NCBI GenBank assembly: GCA_029778615.1
Contig: JAKOPZ010000289.1
Span: 1-64,000, forward strand
DNA length: 64,000 bases
Reading direction: 5' to 3'
Source of the DNA: Chloroflexota bacterium
Lineage (GTDB): Bacteria > Chloroflexota > Anaerolineae > UBA4142 > SHND01
A program made the translations under genes and the position numbers. Within the stretch, counting starts at the first letter, position 1, and each line of letters opens with the position of its first letter. The notes under the pieces were generated by a model, which saw only the letters and a list, made by a program, of their open reading frames with translations, was not told the origin of the DNA and did no database searches. Shown here piece by piece: positions 53,459 to 56,513 of this stretch.

Positions 53459-54766
53459 TTATGGTTGCGCAGCTCCTCCGCGCAGCGTCTCGCGCACCTT
53501 CATCACGATATCCATCAGCTTGACCTCGTCCAGAAAATTTTCGTCGAGCTGTGCTTTGGGCGATGCCGAGTGATAGGTTGGAAACTCTTTGATGTCGCGC
53601 AAGTACAACGCACGCGCGCGTTCCGCCGCGTTGAGCGCAAAGGTTTTCAGCGCGTCGGGCGGTGTTTTGCCTGCCGCCACGTCGGGATATGCGAGCGCCG
53701 CGCCGAGCGCCAATGCTTCGGTTTGCGCGACGAGCAGCGTGAGATTGCGATGATAACAGCTCAGTTTGTGATTGCCGCGCCCCGGCGGTTTGATGAACCA
53801 ATGCGGAAACCATACGACGCGCCCGCGCGGACTGTGATAAATGATTTTGGTCGAACCTTTATCGCTGTACGCCAAATTCAGGGCAGCAATGGGAGGCAAC
53901 GCGGCGCGCTTGGCATCGTCCCACAGGGGGTCCCACGTACTCATGCCGTGCAGCACGCGATGCGGAAATGAATTGTCCTCAATCGGCAGCTGCGGATTCA
54001 CGTTGAGCGTGTGAATGAATGTCGCAACAGAGAGCGGGTCTTGGAGCGCAATTGTCTGGGGCGCCGCATCCGCGAACACGCGCGTCAGTAAATCTTTCAT
54101 AATGCGATTCGCCAGGCGGTCGAGTTTGAGCGCGCTCGTTGTGCCGTCGGGCAGCGTCACGTCAAAATTTTCATTCTCGCGCAGTTTGAACAGTTGCTCC
54201 ATCAACTGCGGATAACGCAGTCCGTCTTTTTTTTCGGTGAGGTTCACCATGAACGCGAGCCCCACCGCGTGTGGGTACAACAAACCGTCCACAATAATTC
54301 CGCCGTTCAACCACGGCGCGCGAATTTTGTACGGCAGAACGATGCGCAGCGGCACCAACGCCTTCCACGCGTCCGCGCCCCTTACGGCGGCAAGCGGTTC
54401 TTCATCCCGATTCAAATAATAGTCCCAAAATTTGTGCAGATAATTTTCCTGCATCCAGTCCCACGGCGGCGTCAGATGCAGCGGGTCGCTCGTGTAGGCG
54501 CGATAGGCGGCAGCGCGCGCACTGAGGAGTTTGCCGCGTATGCTCGGGTCCGCTTTCGCTTGCTCGATGAGCGCGCTGTTGTCGGCATTCCATTTTTTTA
54601 CGTACGCGGCGAGGTCGTCTTGCGCGGCGTCCCAATGCGCGGCGAAATCATTCTGGTTTCCCAAAAATGCCATCGGCGCGTTCGGCGCGCTGCCGTTGAT
54701 TAAATCGGGAAATGCGCGCAGCCAAACAAACGATACGCGAAATTGTTTGGTGAGTGGGTCAGCCAT
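53459..54766 (-). CDS. Hypothetical protein of unknown function
   Basis: The 435-residue soluble protein lacks signal peptide and membrane helices. It is rich in tryptophan and aromatic segments (WDWMQENYLHKFWDYYLNRD; RVVWFPHWFIKPPGRGNHKL). I do not recognise any family. Its start ATG 54766 is preceded on the minus strand by AAGAGGCG. GTG 54772 is a weaker alternative. It is divergent from the candidate small RNA whose -35 box abuts this start codon. Confidence 0.7.
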   Translation of the reverse strand: MADPLTKQFRVSFVWLRAFPDLINGSAPNAPMAFLGNQNDFAAHWDAAQDDLAAYVKKWNADNSALIEQAKADPSIRGKLLSARAAAYRAYTSDPLHLTPPWDWMQENYLHKFWDYYLNRDEEPLAAVRGADAWKALVPLRIVLPYKIRAPWLNGGIIVDGLLYPHAVGLAFMVNLTEKKDGLRYPQLMEQLFKLRENENFDVTLPDGTTSALKLDRLANRIMKDLLTRVFADAAPQTIALQDPLSVATFIHTLNVNPQLPIEDNSFPHRVLHGMSTWDPLWDDAKRAALPPIAALNLAYSDKGSTKIIYHSPRGRVVWFPHWFIKPPGRGNHKLSCYHRNLTLLVAQTEALALGAALAYPDVAAGKTPPDALKTFALNAAERARALYLRDIKEFPTYHSASPKAQLDENFLDEVKLMDIVMKVRETLRGGAAQP

Positions 54767-54794
54767 TGACACGCCTCTTTCTTTTTGCTATCCT
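54766..54794 (+). promoter_or_regulatory. Promoter of the candidate small RNA
   Basis: A perfect TTGACA (54766-54771) and TATCCT (54789-54794, 4/6) are 17 bases apart on the plus strand. No plus-strand protein gene follows, but a structured region ending in a terminator does. The -35 box abuts the start codon of the divergent minus-strand gene. Confidence 0.55.
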
Positions 54795-54800
54795 ATCGGT

Positions 54801-54917
54801 GACTTTGTCTTTTTGTCCCTTTGAAGTGCAATTCGCATAGAGGGACTAGGCAGGTGAGCTCGATGGAGCTCACCAACTGAAATGGCGGTGTGAAACATCA
54901 CCGCCATTTACTTTTTT
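54801..54917 (+). ncRNA. Candidate small RNA with three stem-loops and an intrinsic terminator
   Basis: Downstream of a promoter-like sequence lie three hairpins in order: GTCCCT / AGGGAC (54815-54820 and 54841-54846), GGTGAGCT / AGCTCACC (54853-54860 and 54867-54874), and an 11-bp AAATGGCGGTG / CACCGCCATTT (54880-54909) followed by ACTTTTTT. The T-run faces the plus strand, where no protein gene lies upstream. This fits a free-standing RNA of about 117 bases. No match to tRNA, 6S or SRP RNA motifs was seen. Confidence 0.55.
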
Positions 54918-54929
54918 GTGCGCCGCGCG

Positions 54930-56513
54930 TTATTGGTCGTTGACCAACGGGTCGGGCTGCGCGTGGTGCGGCTGCAACTCTGTTTTGTCCACGAGCGCGG
55001 GATTGCGCAACTCTTGGGTTTGGTCCCAATCCACCGTCGCCGCGTCCGCGTTGCCGATTTTTTCCAATACGTTTGCCAACGCGCGCGGATTCTTTTTTTG
55101 CCGCAGCGCGCTCGAGAGTTCATTCTTGAATTCGTCCGTTGGCATTTGCCAAAAGACGCGAATCTGCGGCATCACCCAAGTTTTCGTTGCATCACTGCTT
55201 GTGACGGGCAAGCGAAACACTTGCTGAATTTGCGCGGGCTGCCCTTGCGCCTGCTTGACATATTTGACCGGCTGCAAATTCAAACTCGCGTTGTAATTCC
55301 CCAACACGCGCAGCACATCGGCGGGCGTATCCACTTGGCTGATTTGCAAACCTTTGAGGCGTTCCGCTTCGCGCCGTTCTTGCCAACGCTTGATGCTTCC
55401 CCATATTGCCCACACCAGCAAGCCGAACAGCATCGCGCCGAGCCACAGCGCAATCAAATCGCGCAGTCCGTACGCTTGCAAATAATTGCGCGGCACAATC
55501 ACGCCGGGCAGCAGCTGCGCTAACCACGTCGTCAGCGGCGTGTACACCAACAGCGCCAACATGGAAACGAGCACCGCCGCCAACCAAAATTCCGGTTTCG
55601 TCAAATCAAAACCGGGGTCGGTCTTGGGATACGCGCGGCGATACAACACAATAAACATCGCCACCGCAATAATGCCGGGCAGCAACAGCAGCGAAGGAAT
55701 TTGAGCAAAACTCACAAATTCCTGCCCAATGACCTCGAAACTGAGACTGCGCGTGACGACGAGCGAGCCCTGCACTTGATTTGCATTGCGCGTCCATTCC
55801 GCTTGCACTTGATACACCAACAAATGTTTGCCGGGAACCACCGCGTCTTGCGCGCGGAATTGATATTCGAGCGCGCGCGTTTGACGCGCTTGCAAGGTGA
55901 TGGGCAGGGCGGGCGTCACCGTCGGCGACAAGAACGACGGCACCGACAATTCAATATCGGTAATCGTAATCGGCACATCGGTGAGATTGCTGATACGCAA
56001 GTATGCCTGTCCCGTTTGTTGGTCTTTGAGAGTTTCCAGCGTTGTATCAATCTGCGCGTCCAGGATACTGCTCAACGGGTCGAGTTGACGTGCTTGAACA
56101 GTCACTTGCGCGAACGCGATGCCGGGAACGAGCGCGCTGTCCACTTGATACATATAGTCCGCGCGAAAATACAGTGTGCCCGCGCGCGGACCGCTGCCGA
56201 CCGCTTGGACATCCACAAGCCAGGTCACCGCGCCGCGCGGTGACGCAGGCGGCGCGTCCGCGTGAATGATGGTCGCGATGCCCACATCCGTGAACGCGGT
56301 CAACGAAATCGCGCGCACTGTTGTTACAGGAATCGTCGCGACGACGACCAATTGAATTTTTTGATTTTGTGCGAGCTCGACGGAGGAAGGTGTGACGCTG
56401 AGGGAAACCGGAGGTGGGGGCGTTTGCGCGCGCACCGGCGAAACGTTGGCGAGCAGAGACCAACCCAAAACCAGCCACGCCGCAGTGGAGACCAGCAAGA
56501 AGATTTTTCGCAT
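54930..56513 (-). CDS. Exported multi-domain membrane protein of unknown function
   Basis: The 527-residue protein has a signal peptide (MRKIFLLVSTAAWLVLGWSL, cleaved near PVRAQ), two Ig/NEW3-like beta-sandwich regions (about 35-255; VTPSSVELAQNQKIQLVVVA and LRISNLTDVPITITDIELSV), three hydrophobic helices (near 275, 315 and 365), and a charged cytoplasmic C-terminal part of about 145 residues. The layout (extracytoplasmic adhesion-like domains plus a cytoplasmic tail) is frequent in Chloroflexota but I know no assigned function. Its gene has a likely extended -10 promoter upstream. Confidence 0.65.
   Translation of the reverse strand: MRKIFLLVSTAAWLVLGWSLLANVSPVRAQTPPPPVSLSVTPSSVELAQNQKIQLVVVATIPVTTVRAISLTAFTDVGIATIIHADAPPASPRGAVTWLVDVQAVGSGPRAGTLYFRADYMYQVDSALVPGIAFAQVTVQARQLDPLSSILDAQIDTTLETLKDQQTGQAYLRISNLTDVPITITDIELSVPSFLSPTVTPALPITLQARQTRALEYQFRAQDAVVPGKHLLVYQVQAEWTRNANQVQGSLVVTRSLSFEVIGQEFVSFAQIPSLLLLPGIIAVAMFIVLYRRAYPKTDPGFDLTKPEFWLAAVLVSMLALLVYTPLTTWLAQLLPGVIVPRNYLQAYGLRDLIALWLGAMLFGLLVWAIWGSIKRWQERREAERLKGLQISQVDTPADVLRVLGNYNASLNLQPVKYVKQAQGQPAQIQQVFRLPVTSSDATKTWVMPQIRVFWQMPTDEFKNELSSALRQKKNPRALANVLEKIGNADAATVDWDQTQELRNPALVDKTELQPHHAQPDPLVNDQ

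Follow-up and report, generated by a model that had tools for sequence, protein, structure and literature searches.

Small structured RNA genes beside a single protein gene are found in type III toxin-antitoxin systems (ToxIN) and in retrons, and antisense RNAs such as ColE1 RNA I and Sok lie opposite the leader of a neighboring gene. Type III clustered regularly interspaced short palindromic repeats (CRISPR) systems have many protein accessories. A small RNA gene dedicated to such systems is not known to us, and none is described in the papers on type III accessories that were searched. Here we analyze a small RNA locus at positions 54766–54917 of a 64,000-nt stretch of an uncultured Chloroflexota genome (contig JAKOPZ010000289.1, positions 1–64,000; hereafter the window). 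The locus is very likely a real gene, predicted from its sequence, for a folded non-coding RNA. The RNA very probably belongs to a family linked to one protein gene, here called A; by the sequence comparisons below, it is found antisense and directly upstream of A in three or more phyla, even where the other neighbor, gene B, has been lost. The preliminary description of the locus proposed a stand-alone RNA gene; the link to A in different phyla, and to loci of type III CRISPR systems, is added here.

Promoter and conservation of the RNA gene

The strand opposite A was examined in every gap upstream of A that was read, and 15 loci were counted. Gaps from Nitrosospira and from genome G954 have no GACT start and were scored as negatives among the 15. 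Two Chloroploca loci (L082 and L088) were kept outside the count; A seems partial there, and no RNA was callable. A −10 box (TAnnnT) followed 6–7 nt on by GACT is present antisense upstream of A in 13 of the 15 loci, where shuffled sequences give an expectation of 0.25. The same pattern is found on the sense strand in none of them. The antisense site is mostly about 35 nt from the start of A. With a stricter test that includes a −35 box as well as GACT, 11/15 loci score against 0.13 expected. The −35 box overlaps the start codon of A in most loci, hairpins lie downstream of the antisense promoters, and nearly all loci have an intrinsic terminator. The plus strand folds more stably than its complement in 12/12 gaps tested, and also in G1080, as expected if the G-U pairs belong to a plus-strand RNA.

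In the window, the promoter matches 10 of 12 consensus positions, has an extended TG, and is the top promoter-like site within 3 kb. The first base of the ATG of A, on the other strand, is also in the −35 hexamer, so the ribosome-binding site of A falls within the promoter spacer. The RNA start, GACTTTG (54801), lies 6 nt past the −10 box. Genes A and B are both on the minus strand, on which B precedes and A follows the RNA gene. Coordinates are given in Table 1.

For the 117-nt RNA (54801–54917), the predicted fold comprises P1 with P2, P3, and the stem of the terminator; its energy is −54.6 kcal/mol (z about −8.7). A slightly longer stretch gave z −6.2, and 0/200 shuffles were equally stable. 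No conserved open reading frame (ORF) was found in the RNA: the longest closed ORF is 19 codons in the window and up to 24 codons in other loci, and these are unrelated. The 117-nt sequence shows no tandem repeats. Rfam gave no matches at the gathering score in the window. The promoter elements (TTGACA-17-TATCCT), stable hairpins, plus-strand T-run, and minus-strand neighbors named in the preliminary description are all confirmed by the coordinates, the fold z-score, and the T6 tail, and its estimate of an RNA of about 117 bases from no known family agrees with ours. A stand-alone plus-strand small RNA (sRNA) gene, as predicted there, is likewise supported by the antisense promoter and GACT start, the compensatory changes described below, the strand bias of the fold, and the lack of a conserved ORF.

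The closest copy of the RNA is on contig C186 of genome G003 and is about 70% identical to that in the window. Helices of the two RNAs were aligned by hand, and the pair comparison therefore covers two sequences. Among 34 pairs, 24 are the same, four have one-sided changes, six have double changes, and none is broken; P1 and P2 together hold three of the double and all four of the one-sided compensations. Controls in which the columns of sequence-based alignments were shuffled point the same way (z −5.0 for window/G003 and −8.9 for G008/G010/G012), and covariation among close relatives gives solid support for the predicted helices. Searched with a covariance model made from the window's RNA, 214 kb of sequence yields the G003 copy with a score of 44.7 bits (E = 2e-8). 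Sequence searches and the same model find the RNA once in the window's own genome; because it is single copy, it was rejected as a dispersed repeat. A covariance search had been suggested in the preliminary description, with missing covariation or repeat copies named as findings that would speak against the gene; neither proved to be the case.

RNA architecture varies among loci. A three-way junction body with a closing P1, P2, and P3 is formed in G1080, G450, G003b, and G030, with a P2 of 4–5 bp and a 4-nt loop that is NGUA in three of them. The RNA at L079 has no P3, and a compound P2 takes the place of the three-way-junction plan in the window RNA and its closest relative. G003 encodes two A genes, has no B, and carries the RNA in front of both; the genes upstream in these two loci encode a major facilitator superfamily transporter and a tetratricopeptide repeat protein. 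Retention of the RNA at two loci without B indicates that the RNA tracks A. No second copy of the RNA was found away from A, either in the window's genome or in relatives.

Several other candidates were set aside. SprD, the top sub-threshold Rfam match (23.8 bits versus a cut-off of 100), and the other sub-threshold matches were dismissed as chance. 6S RNA (RF00013) was rejected since the window locus does not match it and the genome has its 6S match elsewhere, on contig C156. That match (G000 contig C156:5638–5819) is a divergent 6S RNA with 49.2 bits, slightly over the Rfam cut-off; most genus mates score slightly under it. The promoter-GACTTTG pattern was also sought elsewhere in 396 genomes of the class: 8/14 matches fold unlike the RNA, and most look like chance (a reversed-pattern control gave two matches). 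Homologous loci searched against Rfam gave nothing except a tRNA-Sec elsewhere on one contig; this selenocysteine tRNA gene (L087:2558–2654 in G450, matching RF01852) is about 6.6 kb from the module. At L078:7807–7951 (Candidatus Aminicenantes), part of the RNA looks like the T-arm of a tRNA, GGTTCAATTCC, and ARAGORN calls no tRNA there.

Table 1. Predicted features of the RNA locus and its flanking genes, in window coordinates
Feature	Coordinates	Strand	Details
Promoter	54766–54794	+	−35 TTGACA (54766–54771), 17-nt spacer, extended −10 TG-C-TATCCT with TATCCT at 54789–54794
Predicted small RNA, ~117 nt	54801–54917	+	5′ GACUUUG; from fold z-score, GACT start, and no conserved ORF
P1 (5 bp, UGUCU/AGGCA) around compound hairpin P2 (54815–54846)	54806–54852	+	Fold and compensations versus G003
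P3 hairpin, GGUGAGCUC-GAUG-GAGCUCACC	54853–54874	+	Fold and two double compensations
Intrinsic terminator, 11-bp stem and T6 tail	54880–54917	+	Fold and one double compensation
Gene A, proposed partner gene, ~435 aa	53459–54766	−	ATG at 54766; start in the ORF list is the upstream GTG at 54772
Gene B, 527 aa, predicted secreted or membrane protein	54930–56513	−	Signal-like N-terminus and hydrophobic segments, from sequence

Genes A and B

Gene A has no match in Pfam, NCBIfam, or PADLOC and represents an unclassified family with an invariant CYHRNL motif in its C-terminal part. Relatives were found by searches of genome collections in Chloroflexota, ‘Aminicenantes’, Terriglobia and other Acidobacteriota, and Nitrosospira, and are 24–54% identical to the window protein; none was found in the viral contigs and plasmids searched. 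The structure predicted for the whole protein is of good confidence, with a predicted local distance difference test (pLDDT) score of 86.7 and a predicted template-modeling (pTM) score of 0.90. Judged by secondary-structure order and weak matches to common ferredoxin-like folds (Z up to 5.7), the N-terminal part of the model is a ferredoxin-like domain. Kinship of A to the repeat-associated mysterious proteins (RAMPs) of CRISPR systems is no more than a guess, as the N-terminal domain gave just these common ferredoxin-like matches. The C-terminal 40% is basic in 10/11 homologs, a composition that would suit nucleic-acid binding. Gene B, on the far side of the RNA, is the usual neighbor of A and adjoins it in most related loci. 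Family searches with B gave sub-threshold matches only.

Genomic context

The window module is an orphan, surrounded by ordinary genes (transporter, peptidase, cytochrome), and no CRISPR array repeats were found in the window between 40 and 64 kb. Most A loci, that of the window included, have no CRISPR neighbors. In Chloroflexi bacterium 54-19 (L079:4567–12489, MKTJ01000071.1), B, the RNA, and A lie directly upstream of a type III-A Cas6, a 40-copy array, Cas10, Csm2, and Csm3. At L090 (G008), A is beside a DUF4062 protein and type III-B Cmr1/Cas10/Cmr3/Cmr6/Cas6. A CARF-HEPN protein adjoins A at L049 (G003 contig C119), as does a CARF-PDDEXK/Csx1 protein at L048 (G012). A type III CRISPR context for the module, linked to cyclic oligoadenylate signaling and defense, is somewhat more likely than not.

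Two further observations concern neighbors of A. The DUF4062 gene of G008 (L090:8353–9504) lies between A and Cmr1 in the type III-B operon. In Chloroploca asiatica (L082:6600–15941, and L088), a partial A-like ORF is close to brxA and brxC of a bacteriophage exclusion (BREX) system, a further setting among defense genes.

Possible function of the RNA

The RNA may be the direct partner of protein A. The transcript is predicted, with strong support, to start with GACU, fold into a body of a closed stem plus hairpins, and stop at its own terminator before B. Protein A, which has a basic C-terminal part with the CYHRNL motif, would bind the folded RNA (5′ GACU and hairpins), and the two would form a small RNA-protein element of a defense-like module, sometimes taken up by operons of type III CRISPR or CARF effectors. 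The RNA would either restrain A or be an RNA sensed or processed by A. Taken as a whole, an A-linked RNA gene that is also the RNA-protein element of a defense-like module is the best explanation of the locus, with about an even chance of being right. A fuller version seems doubtful: an undescribed RNA-protein defense module in which the antisense RNA assembles with A, often together with membrane protein B, and works by itself or in support of type III CRISPR and cyclic oligoadenylate signaling.

Several results weigh against this account. Foldseek and VIA-align searches with the A model gave no confident structural relative. RNAs from different phyla share position, promoter, GACU start, hairpins, and terminator, and have no detectable similarity in sequence or by covariance model. 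A model built from the G1080 RNA alone (R1) found no convincing distant member, so we infer common descent of these RNAs from position, promoter, and architecture; their MAFFT alignment was too poor for a joint model. The window's genome has no clear Cas10, only a 27-bit match to a Cas10 model. Cas10 is common in the phylum (65/201 genomes at E ≤ 0.001), with no clear enrichment at genome level; because it is so frequent, the CRISPR link rests on the four physical neighborhoods and not on genome-wide enrichment.

Control of A in cis is a somewhat less probable reading than partnership. Either base pairing of the RNA to the B-A mRNA, in its intercistronic leader, or collision of the RNA's promoter with transcription into A would keep A expression low; the hairpins would then serve an antisense RNA as kissing loops and as elements of its stability. 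Antisense RNAs built of stem-loops with a short 5′ tail are familiar, this RNA is always antisense to A and fills nearly the whole B-A gap, and polymerase bound at a −35 box over the start codon of A, as placed in most loci, would cover the ribosome-binding site of A. However, the first base of the RNA is about 34 nt ahead of the start codon, so that the RNA leaves that ribosome-binding site uncovered. It is also retained in G003 despite an unrelated upstream gene, and its folded body and GACU start persist at 25–30% protein identity, when perfect antisense pairing alone needs neither. Direct partnership is preferred by a small margin because the body and start persist at such low protein identity and because the RNA stops short of the ribosome-binding site.

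An sRNA that pairs in trans with unrelated mRNAs, and is beside A by chance, would fit the size of the RNA and its own promoter and terminator, which are the usual form of bacterial sRNAs. It is improbable, since the RNA stays with A across phyla and no second copy was found away from A in its own genome or in relatives. It is very improbable that there is no RNA gene at all and that the hairpins belong to a minus-strand B-A operon, as structures of its spacer or at transcript ends. The hairpins do lie between two co-directional genes, but in the window only the plus strand carries a T-run after the hairpin. The plus-strand promoter with a fixed GACT start, never seen on the sense strand, and the better folding of the plus strand in every gap tested also argue against an operon structure.

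If the RNA binds A, it would be part of a new RNA-protein defense element in at least three phyla; if it merely controls A, it would offer a regulatory handle on an unclassified protein family. The locus also illustrates that hairpins clustered in a single intergenic gap, here in an uncultured Chloroflexota bacterium, can mark a larger inherited unit.

Comparison with known systems

Stand-alone bacterial sRNA genes with sigma-70 promoters resemble the window RNA in promoter, length (about 117 nt), hairpins, terminator, intergenic position, and absence of an ORF. The window RNA differs in having no Rfam family, in being inherited with one uncharacterized protein gene, and in being antisense to that gene. 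6S RNA also has a closed stem around further structure and a housekeeping-type promoter, whereas this genome has a separate 6S RNA and the locus does not match it. ColE1 RNA I and Sok are similar in their length of about 100 nt, several stem-loops, short 5′ tail, and position opposite a neighbor's leader (13/15 loci here). Unlike them, the window RNA falls short of A's ribosome-binding site and keeps its folded plan across phyla.

ToxIN and retrons share with this locus a small structured RNA gene beside one protein gene in a defense-like context. The window RNA is on the strand opposite its protein gene, has no ToxI tandem repeats, and is not accompanied by a retron reverse transcriptase; A itself has no family match and no confident fold match. 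Ancillary genes of type III CRISPR systems, which include CARF effectors and membrane proteins, are like A and B in their placement, as A and B are in or beside III-A/III-B operons, or A is beside a CARF nuclease, at four loci. A differs from them in having no CARF, SAVED, or other known domain, in occurring mostly without CRISPR neighbors, and in having an RNA gene of its own.
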